Positions 1,043 through 14,709 of a stretch of DNA of 64,000 bases are shown here, one piece after another. Origin of the DNA: Phycisphaerae bacterium (GTDB taxonomy: Bacteria > Planctomycetota > Phycisphaerae > UBA1845 > Fen-1342); NCBI GenBank assembly GCA_022072445.1, contig JAJVHV010000020.1, forward strand, positions 1-64,000, in the 5' to 3' direction. The translations under genes were made by a program, and so were the position numbers. Below the pieces are notes generated by a model. That model was not told the DNA's origin. It saw nothing but the letters and a program-made list of their open reading frames with translations, and did no database searches. How positions within the stretch are numbered: position 1 is the stretch's first letter; the number at the start of each line of letters is the position of its first letter.

Positions 1043-2431
1043 TCAGCAACCGCCCGAGGTCAGCGCCACAACAAACGGGTCGATGTCGAAGCCGTTGACC
1101 GATCCGTCGCCGTTCATGTCGCCCGAGCACGGATAAAGCGGCAAGCTGCCTCCGGTGAGCAGCCCGACGAACGGATCGATGTCGAAACCGTTGACCGACC
1201 CGTCGCCATTAACGTCGCACGGCACGCAGCGCACAACGTCGAGCGCGTCGACGTCGTCGGCGACGGGCGAACCGGTTCGCGCCGTGAGCAGACCGAGCGC
1301 TTCGGCCGGAATCCAGATGCCGGGCGGAGCGCCGGGCGCGGGCGGCGGCATGAGAATGTCGCCCGGTTCGATCGGGGCGCCGAAGAAGAAGTCCGGGAAG
1401 CCGATGATCGCCGAGCCGCGCCGCACGGAGAAGAACACCATGTCGGTGAAGCCGCCGGCCCAACTGTACGGACCCAGCGGCGGGGTGTAGACGCCGTCGC
1501 CATTGTCCCAATAGATCAACCCGTCGAGGTCGTCGGTGTCGGGGCCGAAGATATCCAGCCCAAGCAGGAACGCCGGCGCCCACACGACGGGCGGTGCGCC
1601 CGGGCCGAAGCAGATCAGCATGTCGCCGCCGACGAATCCGCCGTTGGCGGCCGCCGAGCCGGTCCCCGGGAATGCCTCGAGGAAATCAAACACAATCGCG
1701 GAGTCGAGCGAGTAGAAGACCGGACCCGGATACGGAAAGATCATCGGTGTGGTATCCATGTCCAGAGCGTCGAGGTTCGAGCCCATGTCGGGAAGACCCG
1801 GGAAGGGTGGGTTCGGCTCCATCAGTCCGACGCCCGGCGTTCCGGGTGGCAGCAGGCCGTCTCCATCAACGACTTCGGTGTTGCCGAAGACTGGCGGCGG
1901 CGGAATCGGGCCGGGCGGCAGACCAACCGTGCGGAACACGTCGGCTGACGCTTCCATCGCCCCGCCCGCTCCTTCGGTCCACACGGCGGGCGGAGCAGGC
2001 GAACCGAAAATCCCGGTGGCCCATTCGTCCACCGAGAAGAACCACATGATCTGGTTCGGCGGATAGACGGGCGTTTCCGGGAAGTCCGTGCCGTACGAGA
2101 GAGCATCCAGCTCGACGAAGCCCGGCACTCCGGGCGGCAGACCCACCGCGCCGCCCCAAAGCGGCAGGGCCAGGCCGGGTGCGGGCGGGCCGAAACCGGC
2201 GCTGATGAAAATCGTTGGATTCGGCAGCGGACCGATCGCGGGAACGCCAAACGGCGGCATCAGAATGTCGCCTTCCGTGATCGGAAATCCGAAGCCTGTA
2301 TCGGGGAACCCCTTTGGCGGACCCTGAAAATCGATTGAGAATGTCGGCTGCGCGAGTGCAACCGAACACGCTCCCACGGCGATGAGCACAGCGACCCATC
2401 TCGTGGAGCGGCAAGCCCTGACATGACGCAT
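1043..2431 (-). CDS. Secreted protein with C-terminal dockerin-type repeats
   Basis: The 462-residue product starts at the ATG at 2431, preceded by a strong GGAGG; the frame is open further upstream but that part has no start support. A signal peptide (WVAVLIAVGACSVALA|QP) opens the protein. The middle is a proline/glycine-rich beta-like region with recurring GDILMPP phrases and no family I recognise. The last ~60 residues hold two near-identical motifs, CDVNGDGSVNGFDIDPFV and its DMNGDG copy, which are calcium-loop dockerin type I-like repeats common at the ends of planctomycete exported proteins. Export is likely; the partner or anchoring role of the dockerin-like end is inferred. It stands alone with its own promoter. 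Confidence 0.85.
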   Translation of the reverse strand: MRHVRACRSTRWVAVLIAVGACSVALAQPTFSIDFQGPPKGFPDTGFGFPITEGDILMPPFGVPAIGPLPNPTIFISAGFGPPAPGLALPLWGGAVGLPPGVPGFVELDALSYGTDFPETPVYPPNQIMWFFSVDEWATGIFGSPAPPAVWTEGAGGAMEASADVFRTVGLPPGPIPPPPVFGNTEVVDGDGLLPPGTPGVGLMEPNPPFPGLPDMGSNLDALDMDTTPMIFPYPGPVFYSLDSAIVFDFLEAFPGTGSAAANGGFVGGDMLICFGPGAPPVVWAPAFLLGLDIFGPDTDDLDGLIYWDNGDGVYTPPLGPYSWAGGFTDMVFFSVRRGSAIIGFPDFFFGAPIEPGDILMPPPAPGAPPGIWIPAEALGLLTARTGSPVADDVDALDVVRCVPCDVNGDGSVNGFDIDPFVGLLTGGSLPLYPCSGDMNGDGSVNGFDIDPFVVALTSGGC

Positions 2432-2516
2432 CGCCTTTCCTCCAGTTACCGAGACGTGACAACTGCGCAACGCACTCCAGCGCGGTGCGCGGGTCCCCCT
2501 TGCGACCCATAAGAAT

Positions 2517-2546
2517 AGTCTAACCCAGGTTTTGACCGAGTGCCAA
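2517..2546 (-). promoter_or_regulatory. Candidate promoter of the dockerin-type gene
   Basis: On the minus strand, TTGGCA (2541-2546) and TAGACT (2517-2522) are separated by 18 bp, about 85 nt upstream of the ATG at 2431. The AT-rich context contrasts with the GC-rich surroundings. Confidence 0.5.
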
Positions 2547-2608
2547 TTATCCGGCGATTCCCATGGCGGAACGTTGCCTGTGATGCCCGGCAGGTCGTTC
2601 GACAGCGC

Positions 2609-2634
2609 GGCAGGTCGCCCAAGCGCGACCTGCC
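2609..2634. repeat. GGCAGGTCGC palindrome, second copy
   Basis: Arms GGCAGGTCGC and GCGACCTGCC form a perfect 10-bp stem with a 6-nt loop, between the divergent dockerin-type gene and the phosphatase gene. Partial arms (GGCAGGTCG at 2589, CCAGGTCGG near 2650) lie on both sides. The rest of the 2432-2734 gap contains only promoter-like sequence. Confidence 0.75.
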
Positions 2635-2734
2635 CGACACCGACCGGGCCAGGTCGGCGGGCCGCGACGCGTTGCGGCAGCGAGACTACAATCGTGCCCG
2701 AACCGAGGTCCCAACGGGCCGACCGAGCGAGTCC

Positions 2735-3247
2735 ATGAACGTTCCGCGTATCATCCGACGCCTGTTCCGCAAGCCATACGACGGTCTGCGGCATTTCGGC
2801 GTGGTGGACGAGGGCCGTCTGTATCGTTGCGGGCAGCCGACGCCGGATGAGCTGGAGCGTCTGATTCGCGAGTACGGGCTGAGGACGGTGGTCAGTCTGC
2901 GTGGGAGCCGCGACGCGAGCGATCCGGACGAGTGGGAGCGTGGCGAGCGTGAGGTGTGCGCGCGGCATGGAGCGACGTTCGTGACGCTGCCCTGCAATCA
3001 CCGCAATCCGCCGACCGAGGCGCAGGTCGAGCGATTCCTGGAGCTGGCGCGAACGTCGGAGCGGCAACCGGTACTGGTCCACTGCCGGCTGGGTCAGCAG
3101 CGGACGCTGCTGTTCTGCGCGCTGTATCGCGTGCACATTCAGGGGGCGCCCGTGGAAGAGGCGCTGCGCGAGATGGACGCGCTGGGCTTCAACATCCGTC
3201 ATCGGCGGCACCAGCAGCTTCTGGCGGCGTTTCACGCGCACACTTGA
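2735..3247 (+). CDS. Dual-specificity/tyrosine phosphatase, cytosolic
   Basis: The 170-residue protein starts at the ATG at 2735 (MNVPRIIRRLFRKPYDG). The P-loop signature HCRLGQQR gives the catalytic CX5R with Cys117, and an upstream GLRTVVSLRG strand is typical of DSP/PTP-like folds. It has no signal peptide. The substrate is unknown; small DSPs of this kind in planctomycetes are uncharacterised. A general-acid Asp probably lies in the preceding loop but I cannot pin it. A TACAAT box at 2687-2692 might be its -10, but a good -35 is missing. The neighbours do not suggest a pathway. Confidence 0.8.
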   Translation: MNVPRIIRRLFRKPYDGLRHFGVVDEGRLYRCGQPTPDELERLIREYGLRTVVSLRGSRDASDPDEWERGEREVCARHGATFVTLPCNHRNPPTEAQVERFLELARTSERQPVLVHCRLGQQRTLLFCALYRVHIQGAPVEEALREMDALGFNIRHRRHQQLLAAFHAHT

Positions 3248-3685
3248 GAAGCAAGGCAGAATGAAGAGTGAAGAATGCAGAAACGGCCGGCGCGCGCGCG
3301 GACATCGAGGGCGCGGGGCCACAGAGGGCCGACGCTACGGCTGTAATTTGCGAATCGCGAGTTGAACCGCGACGCCGCCTTGTTCGCCACGCCGCCCAAT
3401 TCGTAGTTCGCTGTTCGACATTCGCTATTGAACCGCGTGGCCACCGAGCGCGCGTGGCCACGGAGGGACTACGCTACCAATCAACCCTGAACCCTGAACC
3501 CTGAACCCTGAACTCTGAACTCCCGAGTCGCGGACGCGCAGGGGTTGCGCCCGCGCGGTTGGTGCCCGGATTCTGGCGACCGACGTTGCCGGGTTGATCA
3601 ACGGGATCGTGCGGCGCTCCCGATAGAAGTCGGCGTGCGACCGCGCGGCGGCCGCGGATCCGAGTCCCCGAAACGCGGGCGCAAG
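3248..3685. other. Gene-free stretch with degenerate repeats
   Basis: No credible gene. It contains two ~25-bp near-copies (GGCCACAGAGGGC... at about 3316 and GGCCACGGAGGGAC... at about 3456), two TTGAACCGCG copies and a heptamer array at 3483-3522. It appears to be a graveyard of repeat fragments ahead of the sugar-nucleotide genes. Confidence 0.6.
3483..3522. repeat. AACCCTG heptamer tandem array
   Basis: Four exact AACCCTG units are followed by AACTCTG and a partial AACTC. The same heptamer appears at 1027-1040 next to the GGCAGGTCGCC hairpin, so it is dispersed in this genome. Confidence 0.8.
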
Positions 3686-4555
3686 ATGAAAGTCGTCATT
3701 CTGGCCGGGGGGCGCGGCACACGACTCTCGCCGCTGACCGAAGACCGACCCAAACCGATGGTGGAAGTCGGGGGGCAGCCGATTCTCTGGCACATCATGC
3801 AGCATTTCGCGCGGTTCGGGCTGCGCGAGTTTCTCATTCCGCTGGGATATCGAGGTCACGTCATCAAGGAGTTCTTTCTAAACTACCGCGTGATGCGCGA
3901 CGACGTAACGCTCTCGCTGGCGACCGGCGCCGCGCACTTCGCCGCGCCCGGCTCCGACGACTGGACGGTGCACCTGCTTGACACGGGCGTGAACACGCAA
4001 ACCGGCGGGCGCGTCAAGCGGCTCGAACGGCACCTGCGCGAGGGGACGTTCGTCATGACCTACGGCGACGGGATCGCCGACGTCGACATCCGCGAACTGC
4101 TGGCGTTTCACCGCCGCTGCGGCCGGCTGGCGACGGTGACGGCCGTGCGGCCGCCGGCGCGTTTCGGCCATCTCGAGCTGGATGGCGAGATGGTGCGCGC
4201 GTTCACCGAGAAACCGCAGGCGGCGGAAGGGTGGATCAACGGGGGCTTTTTCGTGCTTGAGCCGCCGGCGCTCGATTACATCGCGGGCGACCACATGCCG
4301 TGGGAGAACGAGCCGCTTCAGACGCTGGCGCGCGACGGGCAGTTGAGCGTCTACCGCCATCACGGTTTCTGGCAATGCGTCGACACGCCGCGCGATCTGA
4401 TCCTGCTGGAGAATCTGTGGCGCAGCGGTGAGGCGCCCTGGCGGGCGGCGGCGACGCGATTTCAGCCGGCCTCACAGGTTCTCGGGGCCGCCCCGCCGCC
4501 GTTGCCACCGGCTCCGACGGTTCCCGCCGCCCGTCTCCGGCAATCGCAGCGCTGA
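3686..4555 (+). CDS. rfbF: Glucose-1-phosphate cytidylyltransferase
   Basis: The 289-residue product transfers CMP from CTP to glucose-1-phosphate to make CDP-glucose, the entry to CDP-dideoxy/deoxyhexose synthesis. The start is the ATG at [20 protein letters not shown], which places the nucleotidyltransferase G-G-x-G-x-R-L loop at the N terminus as usual; the longer frame upstream is not supported. [27 protein letters not shown] and the GGFFVLEP segment fit the RfbF family rather than glucose-1-phosphate thymidylyltransferase. The dehydratase gene begins 3 nt after its stop codon, so the two are almost certainly co-transcribed and act in sequence. An alanine/proline-rich tail of about 30 residues is extra. 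Confidence 0.9.
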
Positions 4556-4557
4556 GC

Positions 4558-5649
4558 ATGACTCCGTTCTGGCTGGATCGACCGACGTTTGTCACCGGTG
4601 GCAGCGGCCTGGTGGGCGGCTGGCTGGTCGAGCGGCTCGCGCGGGCGGGCGCGGACGTCGTCTGCCTGCTGCGCGACTGGACGCCGCAGAGCATGCTGCT
4701 GAGCGGCGAGGCGCGGCGGCGCGTGAAGCTGGTGGCCGGCGACGTGTGCGACGCGGCGCTGCTGGAGCGCGTGCTGGGGGAGTATGAGATCGACACGGTG
4801 ATTCACCTGGCGGCGCAGACCATCGTGCCGATCGCCAACCGCAATCCGGTCTCGACGTTCCAGACGAACATCGCCGGCACCTGGACACTGCTCGAAGCCG
4901 CGCGGCGCAGCCCGCGCGTCCGGCAGATCGTGGTCGCCTCGTCGGACAAGGCGTACGGCGATCAAGCGACCCTGCCCTACAGCGAGAGCACGCCGCTCGC
5001 CGGGCGTTACCCGTACGACGTGAGCAAGTCGTGCGCCGACCTGCTGGCGCAGTCGTACGCGGCGACGTATGGGCTGCCGGTCGTGGTGACGCGCTGCGGA
5101 AACTTTTTTGGCGGCGGCGATCTGAACTGGAATCGATTGGTGCCCGGGACGATCCGCTCGGTGCTGCGCGGCCAGCGGCCGGTGATCCGTTCGGACGGCC
5201 AGTCGATCCGCGATTACTTCTACGTCGAAGACGGCGCCGCGGCGTACATGCTGCTCGCCGAGCGACTGGCGGATGACGGCAAGCTGGCGGGCGAGGCGTT
5301 CAATTTCTCCAGCGAGAACCCGCTTCGCGCCGCGGAAGTCGTCGATCACGTTCTCCGGGCGATGGACAACGGGCTGAGGCCGGAAATCCTCGGCCAGGCG
5401 AGCAACGAGATCGGCGCGCAGTTCCTGAGCGCGGAGAAGGCGCGGCGTGTGCTCGGCTGGCGGCCGATGTTCAGCTTCGATGCGGCGCTGCAACGGACGA
5501 TCGCGTGGTATCGACGGCACATCGCCGATGCTCCGGCCGGCGAGCCGGCCAGCGCGCAGGCCGGCCGTTTCCTCCCGCAGTCCGGTCAGCCGGCGGGCGA
5601 GGCGGCCCCTTGTGCGATCGGGGCGGAAGACGACAATCGGGGGTTCTGA
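4558..5649 (+). CDS. rfbG: CDP-glucose 4,6-dehydratase
   Basis: This 363-residue SDR-family enzyme would convert CDP-glucose to CDP-4-keto-6-deoxyglucose with bound NAD. Visible motifs are the Rossmann [11 protein letters not shown] loop near residue 13, [10 protein letters not shown], the catalytic [12 protein letters not shown] (Y-x-x-x-K) and [19 protein letters not shown]. The SSDKAYG and GGDLNW phrases favour CDP-glucose dehydratase over GDP- or dTDP-types. It starts 2 nt after the rfbF stop. The last ~35 residues (after the IAWYRRH helix) are a low-complexity extension. No downstream deoxysugar genes follow, so the final sugar is unknown; O-antigen or another cell-surface glycan is the usual destination. 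Confidence 0.9.
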
Positions 5650-5682
5650 CCGTGGTCGGCGGACGACGGCTGGGACCTGTTG

Positions 5683-6141
5683 ATGCCGCGAACAGCGCTG
5701 CGATTGCGTTTTCATTGCCCACACTGCCCCGCGCACATCGACTGGAACGCACCCGCGCCGGCGACGCGAACCGTCGACTGCCCGACCTGCCGCAAGACGA
5801 TCGCACTTGCCGGCGAGCCGCCGGCGACGGGCGACGGGCCGCTGGACGGCTGCCCGGTCTGCGGCGGTTCCGAACTGTACGTCCGGAAAGACTTTCCGCA
5901 GGGCGTCGGCTTGGGGGTGGTTGCGCTGGCGGCGGTGCTGTCGTTCTGGTTTCTCGAGTCGCACTGTTTTCTGGCGTGGGGCTTCCTGTTGGCGGCGGTC
6001 GCGGTCGACCTGCTGCTCTATCGCCTCGTGAGTTTCGTGACGGTCTGCTACCGCTGCCGGGCGGAGATTCGCGGTGTGGCCCGGAACACGGCCCACGCGG
6101 CATTCGATCTGGCGACAGCAGAGAAGTACGGCGTCGGCTAG
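5683..6141 (+). CDS. Zinc-ribbon protein with two membrane helices
   Basis: The 152-residue product is not assigned to a named family. The N-terminal ~70 residues carry CPHC, CPTC and CPVCGG pairs, and a fourth CYRC pair follows the membrane part, so it probably binds one or two zinc ions. A hydrophobic hairpin (about residues 75-120: [18 protein letters not shown], then [19 protein letters not shown]) forms two membrane segments. The ATG at 5683 is used; a TTG directly before it is an alternative. It lies 33 nt after rfbG and 44 nt before folE, consistent with a shared transcript. Confidence 0.75.
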
Positions 6142-8419: not shown

Positions 8420-10036
8420 ATGGCCACGGACATCCTGCTGGGTGATGAAGCCGTCGGACTCGCCGCCGTTCATGCCGGCGTGTGCGGGGCCTTCGGCTAT
8501 CCCGGAACGCCGGCGACGGAGATTATCGAGTTCATCGCCGATCGGGCCGCGGCCGGCGCGGCGCCGGTGGCCGAGTGGTCGCCGAACGAAAAGGTGGCCT
8601 ACGAGGCGGCGCTAGGCGTTTCTTACGCCGGCCGGCGGGCCCTCGTGGCCTTCAAGCACGTCGGGCTGAACGTCGCGGCCGATCCGTTCATGAGCTCGGC
8701 GCTGACGGGCGTCAACGGCGGTCTGGTGGTCGCCGTCGCCGACGACCCCGGGATGCATTCGTCGCAAAGCGAGCAGGACAGCCGCTTCTACGGAGATTTC
8801 GCGCAGATTCCGGTGCTGGAGCCGTCGAATCAGCAGGAAGCGTACGACATGACGCTGCACGCCTTCGAGCTGTCGGAGCGCTTCGAGCTGCCGGTGATGG
8901 TGCGGCTGGTCACGCGGCTGGCGCACAGCCGGTCGAACGTCCGCACGCTCGACGCGCCAGCCTCGGGCGCGGCACGCCCGCGGCCGCCGGTGAAGGACCC
9001 CAGCGACTGGACGCTGCTGCCGGTGAACGCGCGGCGGCGTTATCGGCGGCTGCTGGAAGTTCAACCGGCGCTGTTGGCCGAATCGGAGCATTCGCATTTC
9101 AACCGGCTGCGGCTGCTGGGGCGGCGCGGCATCATCGCCTCGGGGATCGCGTGGAACTACGTGCGCGAGTTGCTGCGCGACGAGTCGGGCGATTCGCTGC
9201 TGAAGATCGCGACCTACCCGCTGCCGGCGACGCGCATCCGCGAGCTGGTCGACCACTGCGACGAGATCGTCGTCGTCGAAGAGGGCTTTCCGTTCATCGA
9301 GCGGCAGCTCCGCGGGCTGCTCGGCATGACCGGCAAGATCATCCGCGGGCGGTTCACGGGTGACATCCCGCGCGCCGGCGAACTCTCGCCCGACGCGGTC
9401 GGCCCGGCCCTGGGCCGGGCGCGCGGTGCGATTCCCGCCGCCGCGCCCGACCTCGCCGCCCGGCCGCCGCGGCTCTGCGACGGTTGCCCGCATTGCGACG
9501 CGTTCCGCGCCCTGGTTGAGGCGACCGCTCACGACGCCGCGCCGATCCTCTTCAGCGACATCGGCTGCTACACGCTGGGGGCGATGCCGCCGTTCCGCGC
9601 CGTGCACTCCTGCGTCGACATGGGCGCGTCGATCGCCATGGCGCACGGAGCGGCGCTGGCCGGGTCGCATCCGGTGCTGTGCACCATCGGCGACTCGACC
9701 TTCGCGCACTCGGGCATGACGGCGCTGCTGGGCGCGGTGCGCAGCGATGCGAACCTGACCGTGATCATTCTGGACAACGCCGCCGTGGCGATGACCGGCG
9801 GGCAGGAGACGGCGCTGACGGGCGCGGCGCTGATGACGGCGCTGGTCGGGCTGGGTGTCCGGCCGGAGCACCTGCACCGCATCGAGCCGACGCCCAAGCA
9901 TCTCGCCGAGAACGCCGCCCTGATTCGCCGCGAAATCGAGCACCGAGGGCTGTCGGTGATTGTGGCGCATCGGCCGTGCATCCACCTGCGGCGGCGGGAA
10001 ACGGTGACGCAGCCGCGGGCAGAGGCCATGGTATAG
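8420..10036 (+). CDS. iorA: Indolepyruvate:ferredoxin oxidoreductase alpha subunit, without ferredoxin tail
   Basis: The 538-residue subunit carries the thiamine diphosphate site that oxidatively decarboxylates indolepyruvate and other arylpyruvates to aryl-acetyl-CoA. An N-terminal pyrimidine-binding domain (GYPGTPATEIIEF, GVNGGLVVAVADDPGMHSSQSEQD) is followed by a linker and the TPP domain (LCDGCPHCDAF, DIGCYTLGAMPPF, CVDMGASIAMAHG, GDSTFAHSG with N at VIILDNAA). Canonical IorA continues into a C-terminal two-cluster ferredoxin domain; here the chain ends at EAMV with no CxxCxxC cluster, so electrons must leave by another carrier. GGAG lies 6 nt before the ATG. The beta-subunit fusion begins 20 nt downstream. 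Confidence 0.9.
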   Translation: MATDILLGDEAVGLAAVHAGVCGAFGYPGTPATEIIEFIADRAAAGAAPVAEWSPNEKVAYEAALGVSYAGRRALVAFKHVGLNVAADPFMSSALTGVNGGLVVAVADDPGMHSSQSEQDSRFYGDFAQIPVLEPSNQQEAYDMTLHAFELSERFELPVMVRLVTRLAHSRSNVRTLDAPASGAARPRPPVKDPSDWTLLPVNARRRYRRLLEVQPALLAESEHSHFNRLRLLGRRGIIASGIAWNYVRELLRDESGDSLLKIATYPLPATRIRELVDHCDEIVVVEEGFPFIERQLRGLLGMTGKIIRGRFTGDIPRAGELSPDAVGPALGRARGAIPAAAPDLAARPPRLCDGCPHCDAFRALVEATAHDAAPILFSDIGCYTLGAMPPFRAVHSCVDMGASIAMAHGAALAGSHPVLCTIGDSTFAHSGMTALLGAVRSDANLTVIILDNAAVAMTGGQETALTGAALMTALVGLGVRPEHLHRIEPTPKHLAENAALIRREIEHRGLSVIVAHRPCIHLRRRETVTQPRAEAMV

Positions 10037-10056
10037 AGCGTGCGGAGGACCGGCGC

Positions 10057-13000
10057 GTGGAAACGAACATGATTCTGGCGGGTGTCGGGGGCCAGGGCAT
10101 CCTGACGATTTCGCGCGCCCTGACGCAGGCGGCGCTGCGGCAGGGCTGGTCGGTCAAGCAGGCCGAACTGCACGGCATGTCGCAGCGCGGCGGCGCGGTG
10201 CAGTCGCATCTGCGGATTTCGGACCGCGAGATCTTCAGCGACATCATCCCGATGGGCCGGGCCGACCTGATCATCGCCGTCGAGCCGCTCGAGTCGCTGC
10301 GCTACAACGCGTACCTGAGTCCCGACAGCGTCATCGTCGCGTCGGTCAACCCGATGACGAACATCGCCGGTTATCCGCCGATCGAGGAGCTGCTCGACCG
10401 CGTGGCGCGGCATCCGCGGCACGTGCTGGTGGATGCCGAGCGGCTGGCGCGGGCCGCGGGCGCGGCGCGCTCCAGCAACATCGTCATGCTCGGCGCCGCG
10501 TCGCTCTTCCTGCCGTTCGAGCCGGCGCAGCTCAGCCAGGCCGTCGGCGACCTGTTCAGCGGCAAGCCCGAGGCGGCGGAGATCAACGTCCGGGCGTTCG
10601 CGCTGGGCCGCAGCGCCGCCAGCGCTTACGTCGACGCGCTGGAGCGCGGCGCCACGCCGCGCGCCGCGCGCCGCTGGATCGGCGAGATCGATCCGGCGCA
10701 CTTCGCCGACGGCTCGCCGCCGGTGGTCTACGCCGCCGACGAGTCGCCCGCGCTGTGCCTGAGCGGGCCGGAGTTCCGCGCCGCCGACGCGCTGCTGCGC
10801 TGCGTGCAGCAGCTTGGCCGCCGGCAGCTCTTCGAGCACGAGGTCTACACGCTGATGGAGCTGACCGGCGCGATTGTCCCGCCGCGCTACGCCTTCGTGC
10901 CCGACGGGCAGTCGCTCTCGTCGGAGACGCTGGCGGAATTCACGGGCGAGCGCGTCGTGCTCAAGATCGTCTCGGCCGCCGTCGTTCACAAATCCGACGC
11001 CGCCGGCGTCGTCTTCTGCACCAAGAGCCTGGACGTCGTGCGGCGCGAGATTGACCGGCTGATCGGGCTGCACGCGGCGGCCGGCGTCGCGGGCGTGCTC
11101 ATGGTTGAGTTCGTGGAAGGAGCGCGTGGCGGCTTCTCGGGCCTGGGGAGCGAGCTGTTCGTCGGGATTCGCGCGACGCGCGAGTTCGGGCCGGTCATCG
11201 CCGCGGGGCTGGGAGGCGTGGACACCGAGTACCTCGCCAGCCGCATGCGCCCGGGCGTCGCGGTCGCCAAAGCCATCGTCGCCACGACCAGTGCCGAGCA
11301 GTTCCTCGAGCTCTTCCGCCAGACCGCGGCGTACGACATTCTGGGCGGGCGGGCGCGCGGCCATCGCCGGGCGGTTTCGGACGGCGAGCTGCTGCGCTGC
11401 TTCCGGGCGTTTCTGAGCCTGGCGCGGGCCTTCTGCCGTCCGCGCGACGACGGCGGGCCGACGCTCGTCGAGCTGGAGGTCAACCCGTTCGCGTTTCGCC
11501 GCTTGCGGATGGTCCCGCTCGACGGCCGTGGCCGTCTGGGGCCGGTGCGCAGCCCCGAGGCGCCCCGCCCGGTCGAAAACGTGGAACGCATGCTCCAGCC
11601 GCGCTCGATCGCCGTCCTGGGAGTCTCCGCAAACACGATCAACTTCGGCCGCATCATCGTCCGCAACATCAAGAGCTGCGGATTCCCGGTCGCGCACACC
11701 TACATCATCAAGAAGGACGAGCGCGAGATCGACGGCGTGCGCTGCGTTCCGTCGTGCGCCGAACTGCCCGAGCCGGCGGATCTACTCGTCGTCGCCACGG
11801 CGGCCGCCACGTTGCCGGTGGCGCTCGACGACATCGTCGCAAGCCGCAAGGTGCGCTCGGCGATCATGATTCCCGGCGGCGTCGGCGAGACCGACGGCAC
11901 GCAGGAGCTCGAGGCGCGCATCGAGAGCATCATCCGCCGCGCCGGCGCCACCGCGGCCTCACCCGTCGAGCGTACGGTGTTTCTGGGACCGAATTCGCTG
12001 GGCATCCAGTCGCGCTGCGGGAAGTACGACACGTTTTTCGTGCCCGCCGCCAAGCTGGCCGTCCGCCGCGGCTCCGCGCCGCAGCGCGCCGCGCTGATCT
12101 CGCAGAGCGGGGCCTTCATCGTCGGGCGGCTGAGCAACCTGGAATCGATCGATCCGATGCTGGCCGTCTCGGTCGGCAACCAGCTCGACCTGACGCTCAG
12201 CGACCTGCTCCGGGCGGTCGGCCGGCGCGACGACGTCGACGTGGTCGGCGTCTACGCCGAGGGCTTCGCCGACCTCGACGGCGAGCCGTTCCTCCGCGCC
12301 ATCCAGGACCTGTCCGAGTCCGGCAAGATCGTCATTTTCTACAAGGCGGGCCGCACCGAGGCCGGCCGGTCGGCCGCGGCGGGACACACCGCGTCGGTCG
12401 CCGGTGATTATGACGTGTGTCAGGCGGCCGCCGCCCAAGCCGGAGCGCTGGTGGTCGACACGTTCAAGGAGTTCGAGCAGGTCTTCGATCTGGCGATCAA
12501 ACTGCACAATCTGCCCGCCCCGGGGCTGCGCCTCGCCGCGATCACCAACGCGGGCTGCGAGTCGGTCGCGATGGCCGACGCGATCCGCGGCTCACGCTAC
12601 GAGATCGAAACGCCGCCGCTCTCGCCCGCCCTGACGACGCGGCTGACGAGCATCCTGTCCCGGCACGGCCTCGACAAGCTCGTCAACCCGCGCAACCCGC
12701 TCGATCTGACGTCCGGCGCGCCCGAAGCAGCCTACGAGGAATGTACCCGGCTACTGCTCGAGAGCGACGAGATCGACGCCGTGGTCGTTTCGGCGGTGCC
12801 GCTCACACCGTCGCTTCGCACGACGCCCGACGAGATCGTCCAGCCCGGTTCGCTGGCAACACGGCTTCCGGCGCTTTTCGCGACGGCGCGCAAGCCGCTC
12901 GTGGCGGTGATCGACGCCGGTTCGCTCTACGACGTGCTGGCGCGGCGAATTCACGACGCCGGCGTGCCGCTCTTTCGCACCTGCGACCAGGCGGTGCGCT

Positions 13001-13125
13001 CGCTGGGGCGCTACCTGTGCCACCGCGTGCAGTTCGCGCCGCGCAGCACTGCGCCATCCGCCGTGCCGTTGCCGGACACGGATGAGCGGCCCATGCTGGT
13101 CGCCGCCGAGTCTCAGGCCGGTTGA
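10057..13125 (+). CDS. IorB fused to ADP-forming acyl-CoA synthetase (beta-alpha order)
   Basis: The 1022-residue product starts at the GTG at 10057, with GGAGG 8 nt before it; longer readings overlap iorA. Residues 1-~200 are IorB, the gamma-type oxidoreductase subunit (ILAGVGGQGILTISRAL, QAELHGMSQRGGAVQSHLR). Residues ~235-495 are an ATP-grasp domain like the beta subunit of ADP-forming acetyl-CoA synthetase, with KIVSAAVVHKSDAAGV placing the phosphohistidine at His311. Residues ~508-1022 match the alpha subunit: CoA-binding Rossmann start (SIAVLGVSANTINFG), FLGPNSLGI, ALISQSGAF, and GHTASVAGDY with the catalytic His at 777. Together with IorA it could turn arylpyruvates into aryl-acetates while making ATP. 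The order is permuted relative to the common alpha-beta fusions. Confidence 0.9.
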   Translation: METNMILAGVGGQGILTISRALTQAALRQGWSVKQAELHGMSQRGGAVQSHLRISDREIFSDIIPMGRADLIIAVEPLESLRYNAYLSPDSVIVASVNPMTNIAGYPPIEELLDRVARHPRHVLVDAERLARAAGAARSSNIVMLGAASLFLPFEPAQLSQAVGDLFSGKPEAAEINVRAFALGRSAASAYVDALERGATPRAARRWIGEIDPAHFADGSPPVVYAADESPALCLSGPEFRAADALLRCVQQLGRRQLFEHEVYTLMELTGAIVPPRYAFVPDGQSLSSETLAEFTGERVVLKIVSAAVVHKSDAAGVVFCTKSLDVVRREIDRLIGLHAAAGVAGVLMVEFVEGARGGFSGLGSELFVGIRATREFGPVIAAGLGGVDTEYLASRMRPGVAVAKAIVATTSAEQFLELFRQTAAYDILGGRARGHRRAVSDGELLRCFRAFLSLARAFCRPRDDGGPTLVELEVNPFAFRRLRMVPLDGRGRLGPVRSPEAPRPVENVERMLQPRSIAVLGVSANTINFGRIIVRNIKSCGFPVAHTYIIKKDEREIDGVRCVPSCAELPEPADLLVVATAAATLPVALDDIVASRKVRSAIMIPGGVGETDGTQELEARIESIIRRAGATAASPVERTVFLGPNSLGIQSRCGKYDTFFVPAAKLAVRRGSAPQRAALISQSGAFIVGRLSNLESIDPMLAVSVGNQLDLTLSDLLRAVGRRDDVDVVGVYAEGFADLDGEPFLRAIQDLSESGKIVIFYKAGRTEAGRSAAAGHTASVAGDYDVCQAAAAQAGALVVDTFKEFEQVFDLAIKLHNLPAPGLRLAAITNAGCESVAMADAIRGSRYEIETPPLSPALTTRLTSILSRHGLDKLVNPRNPLDLTSGAPEAAYEECTRLLLESDEIDAVVVSAVPLTPSLRTTPDEIVQPGSLATRLPALFATARKPLVAVIDAGSLYDVLARRIHDAGVPLFRTCDQAVRSLGRYLCHRVQFAPRSTAPSAVPLPDTDERPMLVAAESQAG

Positions 13126-14549
13126 AGGTGGATGCGGAAGGCGTCGCGGATTTTGGCGAAGCGCGGCGTCGGCTGCGGCATGAAGCCGAAGCGCTGCGCG
13201 TCGTGCGGAGCCTGAATCCGGGCCATGCGCTTCCAGCCCTTGTTCATCCCGTGCACGAAGAGCGACGTCGTCAGCGAACGCGTCCGCAGAAACGTCCGCA
13301 GCGCCCGCTTGTTCACCCACGACTCCTTCGCCGCCGCGAATCGCAACTCGTAGATCGCCTCGTCCAGCTCGCGGGCGGTCATGTTCTTCGGCTGATAGAC
13401 CGTCTCGGTGAACGTGTAGCGCTCCCAGTCGGCCGGGTAGCTGGTCGCCAGCAACCGCCCCTCTTTCAGAAAGCGGTCGTACATCTTCGTGCCGGGCAGC
13501 GGCGTCAGGTTCGTGATCTGGATGATGTCGATCCCCAGCCGCACCGCCGCGATCGCAGTTTCGGCGACCGTGTCGGGCGTGTCCTGGTCGGCGCCGATGA
13601 TGAAGCCGCCAAAGACCGCGACGCCGGCGCGATGAAACGCGTTGATCAGTTCGCGGTAGCGGGCCAGATTGTTGCGGTTGATCCCCTTGTGATATTCCTT
13701 GAGCGATTCGGCATTGAACGTCTCGAAGCCCACCAGCATGCCGCGGCACCCGGCCCGATACGCCAGCCGCAGCCCCTCGGGGTCGTCGCCCATGTTGATC
13801 GTCGTCTGGCTGAACCAGAGCCGCCGTTTGCCGTGGCGAATCAGCGCCCGCAGCAGCTCCTTGGCCCACTCCGCGTGCTTCGGCCCGACGCCGAAAAAAT
13901 TGTCGTCCACCACAAACGTGAACGGCTGCGTGGTCTCATTCCATTCCGAGACGATGTCGGCGATGCGTCGGCGGCGGATGGGCGCGCCGTTGAACTGCGT
14001 GACCGAGCAGTACTCGCAGCCGACCGGGCAGCCGCGCGAGGTCTGAATCGCCGAGACGCTGTACTTGCCGTTCACGGGCGCCAGCCGCTGCGCCCCGCCT
14101 CCCAGCCCGAGCGCCTCCAGGTCCGACAACGTCCCGTGATAGACGCGCTGCATGCGGCCCGCCGCCGCCTCGGCGATGATCTGCGGCCAGATTTCGTCGC
14201 ACTCGCCGATCGCGACGGCGTCGACGTGGGCCAGGGCTTCGTCCGGACAGGCCGAGGCGTGCGGACCGCCCATGATCGTGCGGATGCCGCGCCGCCGACA
14301 CAACTGCGCGATCTCGTACGCCCGCGTGGCGCCGCTCGTGTAGCCGGTGATGCCGACCAGGTCATAGCGGTCCGCGGTCAGGCCGTCGTCGGTCGCCCGC
14401 GGACCGAAAACCTCGTCATAGAGGTCGACCTCGTGCTCCGGCGGGACGAGCCGTGCAAGCACTTGCAAACCCAGTTGCGGAATGTAGCTGCCGACGGTGT
14501 GATATCCCTGATTACGGCGCGTAATAGGGTTCACCAGCGCGATGCGCAT
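13113..14549 (-). CDS. B12-binding-domain radical SAM protein
   Basis: The 478-residue protein starts at the ATG for MRIALVNPITRRN; a GTG 24 nt upstream is possible. Residues 1-~145 resemble the cobalamin-binding fold of class B radical SAM enzymes (YDLVGITGYTSG, GIRTIMGGPHASACPDEAL, VDAVAIGECDEIW). CPVGCEYC at 174-181 is the CxxxCxxC cluster site. The substrate cannot be told; members include methylases and cyclases of the BchE/HpnJ kind. The C-terminal ~80 residues are basic. Its 3' end overlaps the convergent fusion gene by 13 nt. A cobalamin adenosyltransferase at 59403 shows the organism handles B12. Confidence 0.85.
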   Translation of the reverse strand: MRIALVNPITRRNQGYHTVGSYIPQLGLQVLARLVPPEHEVDLYDEVFGPRATDDGLTADRYDLVGITGYTSGATRAYEIAQLCRRRGIRTIMGGPHASACPDEALAHVDAVAIGECDEIWPQIIAEAAAGRMQRVYHGTLSDLEALGLGGGAQRLAPVNGKYSVSAIQTSRGCPVGCEYCSVTQFNGAPIRRRRIADIVSEWNETTQPFTFVVDDNFFGVGPKHAEWAKELLRALIRHGKRRLWFSQTTINMGDDPEGLRLAYRAGCRGMLVGFETFNAESLKEYHKGINRNNLARYRELINAFHRAGVAVFGGFIIGADQDTPDTVAETAIAAVRLGIDIIQITNLTPLPGTKMYDRFLKEGRLLATSYPADWERYTFTETVYQPKNMTARELDEAIYELRFAAAKESWVNKRALRTFLRTRSLTTSLFVHGMNKGWKRMARIQAPHDAQRFGFMPQPTPRFAKIRDAFRIHLQPA

Positions 14550-14709
14550 GAGCGACTCACCAGAAGCGAGCACGGGCGACGGATGGCGGCGCTGCAGAGG
14601 GCGCCTTCGAGCTCAGCCGGCCTCGACCCACGTGCGTACATCATAAACGAGCCGCAGACGCGCGACCAGCCGACCGACCGGCGCCGCCGTCTCAGGAGAG
14701 CAGCGCACG

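Follow-up and report, generated by a model that had tools for sequence, protein, structure and literature searches.

The succession of an indolepyruvate oxidoreductase (IOR) and an ADP-forming acyl-CoA synthetase (ACD) is a known metabolic logic in archaeal peptide fermenters, in which organisms the two are separate enzymes. In a 64,000-nt stretch of the Phycisphaerae bacterium contig JAJVHV010000020.1—hereafter the window, by which term we mean that entire stretch—a single gene behind iorA appeared to encode both the second IOR subunit (IorB) and a synthetase of that kind. The locus thus raises the question of whether the oxidation of a 2-oxoacid and the formation of ATP are joined there in one system and, if so, with which substrate and in which direction that system would operate.

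The frame of the fusion gene is open throughout, from a GTG start to a TGA stop, and its parts are listed in Table 1 together with those of iorA. The POR domain (residues 11-185), the ATP-grasp_5, the CoA_binding_2, and the Succ_CoA_lig all exceeded the gathering scores in the Pfam scan, and the NCBIfam model for the indolepyruvate-oxidoreductase subunit beta (NF005324) matched residues 2-191 with 236.3 bits, above its cut-off of 222, which model scored 268 and 238 bits with the orthologues L016 and L027, respectively. The ORF, the Pfam matches, and the NCBIfam matches thus bore out the original prediction of a single frame joining IorB, an ATP-grasp domain, and a CoA-binding/succinyl-CoA-synthetase-like part. 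The start residue, located 8 residues before the GVGGQG motif, is common to nearly all the orthologues; and the production of a separate synthetase from an internal start in the linker, which possibility we also considered, was discarded because no conserved Met is present in that segment among 24 orthologues. To judge from these features, the fusion would fit the ACD superfamily along with the IorB model, and it would lie outside the named acetate, hydroxypropionate, and hydroxybutyrate ligase equivalogs; the scores were 223.7 bits with TIGR02717 (acetate--CoA ligase alpha subunit), where the cut-off of 567 was not reached, and 218.3 bits with NF045494 (AcCoALig_Archglob), where that of 1200 was not reached. 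A GNAT domain of the PatZ/Pka type was likewise sought, and the Pfam scan of the fusion returned no acetyltransferase family. A gene for a B12-binding radical SAM protein (13113-14573, minus strand) runs convergently toward the fusion, the last 13 nt of which it shares; the annotation of the window revealed no functional link between the two.

Table 1. Features of iorA and of the fusion gene, in positions of the window
Feature	Position	Strand	Basis or remarks
iorA, 538 aa, POR_N 15-180 and TPP_enzyme_C 380-468	8420..10036	+	Pfam, TIGR03336
IorA cysteines C353 (9476), C356 (9485), C383 (9566), C520 (9977)	9476..9979	+	Probable proximal [4Fe-4S] ligands
Probable ribosome-binding site of the fusion gene, GGAGGA	10044..10049	+	7 nt ahead of the GTG
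IorB-ACD fusion gene	10057..13125	+	1022 aa, GTG start; ORF, Pfam/NCBIfam matches, orthologues
IorB / POR gamma domain, residues 2-191	10060..10629	+	NF005324 236 bits (cut-off 222), PF01558 113 bits
Linker, residues 192-236 (~45)	10630..10764	+	AlphaFold2: partly helical, low-confidence at 226-232
ATP-grasp_5 (ACD beta part), residues 252-491	10810..11529	+	Pfam; His311 10987-10989; EVNPF 474-478
CoA_binding_2 (ACD alpha, subdomain 1), residues 516-632	11602..11952	+	Pfam
Succ_CoA_lig (ACD alpha, subdomain 2), residues 677-810	12085..12486	+	Pfam; swinging-loop His777 12385-12387
Ligase_CoA-like part (ACD subdomain 5), residues about 811-996	12487..13044	+	Model alignment to 8wzu

When the architecture of IorB, ATP-grasp, and CoA-binding in one protein was searched for across about 85,000 species genomes, the same full-length layout was found in about 30 loci, whose proteins are 52-59% identical to that of the window, the hosts being Planctomycetota along with bins that the MAG records label as Deltaproteobacteria, Acidobacteriota, and Cyanobacteria. 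Within the window's own class the full-length fusion was present in 31 of the 397 genomes sampled—13 of the 31 belonging to the window's family—and 24 fused proteins had a mean pairwise identity of 57%, with a minimum of 50%. Since the same fusion at the same joint recurs in about 30 independent assemblies and its orthologues span several phyla, a missed stop or frameshift between the IorB and the ATP-grasp parts, which occurrence would dissolve the predicted single chain, is excluded. One locus (L031, 8001-11035) can be aligned over the full length, yet its IorB and synthetase parts are in different frames, which would mean that the gene is split or that the sequencing introduced a frameshift.

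Both phosphohistidine positions are found where the original prediction had placed them, His311 in VVHKSD and His777 in GHTAS, and remain unchanged in all 24 of the aligned fused orthologues, so that a loss of the two was nowhere observed; K303, the E474-V-N-P-F stretch, and E735 are likewise invariant in that set. His777 aligns with residue 254 of the alpha chain of CkcACD1 (4xyl chain A), and His311 with the HKSD histidine of the beta chain (4xyl chain B). The two-histidine relay of the ADP-forming synthetase family has been described (PMC11494057). The AlphaFold2 model of the fusion had a pLDDT of 81 and a pTM of 0.73, with values of pLDDT <50 in the loop 766-777, which segment bears His777; a low value there would fit, as expected, a mobile swinging loop. 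The ACD part of the model aligned with ACD structures at Z-scores of 33-39, which comparison with the PDB involved mainly residues 502-995, the IorB part matching only the gamma subunits of OFORs (3g2e). Thus, residues 1-456 of 8wzu (subdomains 1-2-5) aligned with model residues 505-996 (Z 38.9), and the 3-hydroxypropionyl-CoA synthetase of Nitrosopumilus maritimus (9y43) with residues 240-993 (Z 33.4). This latter enzyme is also one chain with beta before alpha, but has no IorB part, is 22% identical, and uses 3-hydroxypropionate. The ATP-grasp-first order of the fusion is collinear with 9y43 and with the models NF045492 and NF045494; to call the synthetase permuted, with a reversed order of beta before alpha, was accordingly an overstatement, and the domain order as a novelty is ruled out by 9y43 and NF045494. 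The ACS2/ACD enzymes of the Thermococcales and CkcACD1 share with the fusion the CoA-binding, Succ_CoA_lig, and ATP-grasp domains and both phosphohistidines; those enzymes, however, consist of separate alpha and beta subunits encoded away from ior, whereas here a single chain is fused to IorB.

The iorA gene stops 20 nt ahead of the GTG of the fusion, with the GGAGGA in the interval, and the proposed pairing of the two products was supported. The pair resembles the Pyrococcus furiosus type of IorAB (TIGR03336 / PRK06853) in the adjacency of the iorA and iorB homologues, in an IorB domain that passes NF005324, and in the retention of the TPP domain and the four TPP-subunit cysteines, but differs from that type in that IorA is here without the C-terminal ferredoxin domain and IorB has an ADP-forming synthetase tail. 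TIGR03336 aligned with IorA from profile position 3 to 543 (of 595) and scored 495.5 bits, short of the cut-off of 650.9 in part because the last 50 profile positions are missing, and an arylpyruvate specificity is therefore not certified by that model. With both subunits, nevertheless, the indolepyruvate-oxidoreductase models scored far above those for pyruvate, ketoisovalerate, and oxoglutarate. The features of the 2-oxoacid-oxidoreductase superfamily—the POR_N, TPP_enzyme_C, and POR gamma domains plus the proximal-cluster cysteines—are present, and by its sequence IorA would be a member of that superfamily nearest to the IOR alpha subunit, missing two features of the IOR alpha family.

A C-terminal 2[4Fe-4S] ferredoxin domain, whether fused or not, was absent in the window IorA, a point that the original prediction had overlooked, and in 15 IorA proteins of the fused clade, and no CxxCxxCxxxC motif was found in any of the fused-clade IorA sequences examined, all of which end after the TPP domain. 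C353, C356, C383, and C520 occur without exception in the 17 aligned IorA proteins and, by analogy with the spacing in 2-oxoacid oxidoreductases, are the probable ligands of a single proximal [4Fe-4S] cluster; because the C-terminal domain is missing, the complex should carry that one cluster. We discarded the idea that the fusion caused the loss of the ferredoxin domain: the unfused relatives L055-L058 and L072 are also without the domain, the absence of which thus predates the fusion. Oxidoreductases that have a single cluster and no ferredoxin domain transfer their electrons to an external ferredoxin, and examples occur in aerobes (PMC5020499). The 2-oxoacid:ferredoxin oxidoreductase of Sulfolobus tokodaii, a precedent whose structure has been solved, has the same combination of a single [4Fe-4S], no intramolecular ferredoxin domain, and an external ferredoxin, which combination is here predicted from the genes; but in that enzyme the gamma domain is fused to the alpha subunit instead of to a synthetase, and the substrates are pyruvate and 2-oxoglutarate (PMC5020499).

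The iorA gene lies immediately 5' of the fusion wherever a fused locus has sufficient flanking sequence and is the sole conserved neighbour, no other conserved operon partner having been found within about 8 kb in 34 loci by a crude ORF calling that may miss short genes. Next to the window's operon there is no arylpyruvate-making or -using gene. In the window's genome the fusion is the sole ACD and IorA the sole close IorA; the genome also encodes two COX1 homologues (terminal oxidases) and several ferredoxin-type proteins, and contains no phenylacetate-CoA ligase above the family cut-off. At another locus of that genome (L080, G000:C13:95000-102000; 1399-5789) a second gamma-subunit fusion occurs, whose 738-aa protein comprises POR gamma, Fer4_20, Pyr_redox_2 (GltD-like), and a C-terminal Fer4 and is followed by POR_N/PFOR_II and TPP subunits, which system has the appearance of a pyruvate-type oxidoreductase linked to NAD(P). 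Elsewhere, a methionine gamma-lyase-like PLP gene directly follows the fusion, in the same orientation, in L021 (7 nt downstream) and L025 (19 nt; 11076-12371), as does a related Cys/Met-type PLP gene in L026 (73 nt downstream); these genes may hint at 2-oxobutyrate as a substrate there.

With respect to ancestry, iorA, iorB, and a beta-alpha synthetase are consecutive as separate genes at four loci of the same phylum (L055, L056, L058, L072), and in L057 and L060 the three are separate but close together. In the tree of the synthetases, the fused proteins constitute one group, within which five single synthetases are nested (L054, L071, L076, L077, L079). This topology would fit a single fusion after which the IorB half was lost about five times, a count that is approximate, the tree being a quick one with long branches (L035, L037) and SH-aLRT support only. 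At E 1e-60, IorA was not found in four of the five genomes with IorB loss (G340, G698, G647, G448), and the fifth (G667) has a partial IorA at a contig edge. Because the IorB-less synthetases persist without a close IorA, the synthetase does not depend strictly on an IOR product. In a Ktedonobacteria bin (L044, 6088-10791) an iorA that retains the ferredoxin domain, an iorB, and an alpha-beta synthetase stand in a row, which arrangement we regard as an independent form of this gene neighbourhood. What we observed directly comprises the parts and their conservation, the fusion into one gene, and the operon ancestry.

We consider it reasonably probable that IorA and the fusion constitute a single-cluster arylpyruvate oxidoreductase whose tail turns its own acyl-CoA into the free acid and ATP, in which scheme we infer the substrate, the direction, the electron acceptor, and any local hand-over of the thioester. 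The two proteins would form one 2-oxoacid-oxidoreductase complex with a built-in energy-conserving step. IorA, with its TPP and single proximal [4Fe-4S] cluster, would decarboxylate a 2-oxoacid—most probably an arylpyruvate derived from one of the aromatic amino acids—and deliver the electrons to an external ferredoxin, while the transfer of the acyl group to CoA would give arylacetyl-CoA. The attached ADP-forming synthetase would take that thioester and form phospho-His777, and the swinging loop would carry the phosphate from His777 to His311 and on to ADP, with arylacetate being released. The net reaction would be 2-oxoacid + ADP + Pi + 2 oxidised ferredoxin -> acid + CO2 + ATP + 2 reduced ferredoxin, the CoA being recycled inside the complex.

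In favour of this scheme we counted the domain set complete in one frame; the invariant His, ATP-grasp, and CoA-site signatures in the 24 orthologues; the pairing with iorA; the unfused triplets; the single origin of the fusion; the lack of a close IorA in four of the five genomes where IorB was lost; the agreement of the modelled ACD part with ACD structures; the status of the fusion and of IorA as the genome's sole ACD and sole close IorA; and the terminal oxidases and ferredoxins of that genome, given the single-cluster enzymes of aerobes. In addition, the division of labour is established for separate enzymes in Pyrococcus: ACS2 of P. furiosus uses phenylacetyl-CoA and indoleacetyl-CoA, which thioesters are IOR products (PMC3942289), and in the Peptostreptococcales IORs are reported to be located near ADP-forming ligases (PMC13285125). 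Against it, the IorB-less descendants suggest that the synthetase can serve other sources of acyl-CoA, the PLP genes in L021, L025, and L026 hint at other 2-oxoacids in those loci, and neither the surroundings of the window's operon nor the TIGR03336 score of IorA would point specifically to arylpyruvate. The stronger version of the scheme, a direct hand-over in which the CoA would never leave and one assembly would make arylacetate, CO2, ATP, and reduced ferredoxin from arylpyruvate, ADP, and phosphate, appears to us somewhat unlikely.

The alternative that best withstands the evidence is that the fusion fixes only the stoichiometry and the co-expression of two activities that work independently on free acyl-CoA, the tail handling several of the cell's acyl-CoAs. 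The position of the fusion as the genome's sole ACD, the persistence of ACD-only descendants without IorA, and the flexibility of the linker in the model would all agree with such independence; but about 30 lineages, at some 50-60% identity, have retained the fusion, and the loss of IorB coincides with that of IorA in four of five cases. We grant this possibility appreciable weight, if less than an even chance. The same chemistry might otherwise be exercised on non-aromatic 2-oxoacids—2-oxobutyrate, 4-methylthio-2-oxobutyrate, or branched-chain ones—with the tail making ATP from the matching acyl-CoA, as might be suggested by the PLP genes just behind the fusion, by the IorA score under the family cut-off, and by the capacity of P. 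furiosus ACS2 to take 3-methylthiopropionate and aliphatic acids as well (PMC3942289). We nonetheless judge this substrate range unlikely, for both subunits score best, and by a wide margin, with the indolepyruvate-oxidoreductase models, and, of about 30 loci, only 3 have a PLP gene next to the fusion on the same strand.

The system could also run in the assimilatory direction, the tail spending ATP on converting arylacetate to arylacetyl-CoA and IorAB, with reduced ferredoxin, carboxylating the latter to arylpyruvate for amino acids. ADP-forming synthetases are indeed reversible, certain of them, for instance the 4-hydroxybutyryl-CoA synthetase, operating to activate the acid (PMC11494057), and the lack of a phenylacetate-CoA ligase above the cut-off in the window's genome would be in keeping with such a role. 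Yet no transporter or aryl-acid gene is found nearby, a low-potential ferredoxin would be required in an organism that has terminal oxidases, and the fused clade is scattered over MAGs that resemble heterotrophs and share no autotrophic setting; assimilation is, in our estimation, distinctly improbable. That an assembly or frame artefact joined two genes, to which the GC-rich, MAG-like assembly, the real two-gene neighbours in relatives, and the differing frames of L031 might lend some colour, deserves practically no credence and is already refuted by the identical joint in about 30 independent assemblies.

A search of the open-access literature yielded no report of the fusion, which may nevertheless have been described in subscription papers. 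As far as that search goes, what is new is the covalent IorB-ACD joint together with the single-cluster IorA; the parts, the operon logic, and the order of the synthetase were known.

For the breakdown of aromatic amino acids with substrate-level ATP formation in the Planctomycetota there has been, to our knowledge, little support so far. The logic of an IOR plus a synthetase is here contained in one gene, which dozens of lineages of uncultured bacteria, including many Planctomycetota, have retained. As a soluble two-gene system, the pair offers a direct test bed for the coupling of ferredoxin reduction to ATP formation and for a local hand-over of acyl-CoA, and the repeated loss of IorB provides natural cases in which one synthetase may be compared in the presence and in the absence of its oxidoreductase.
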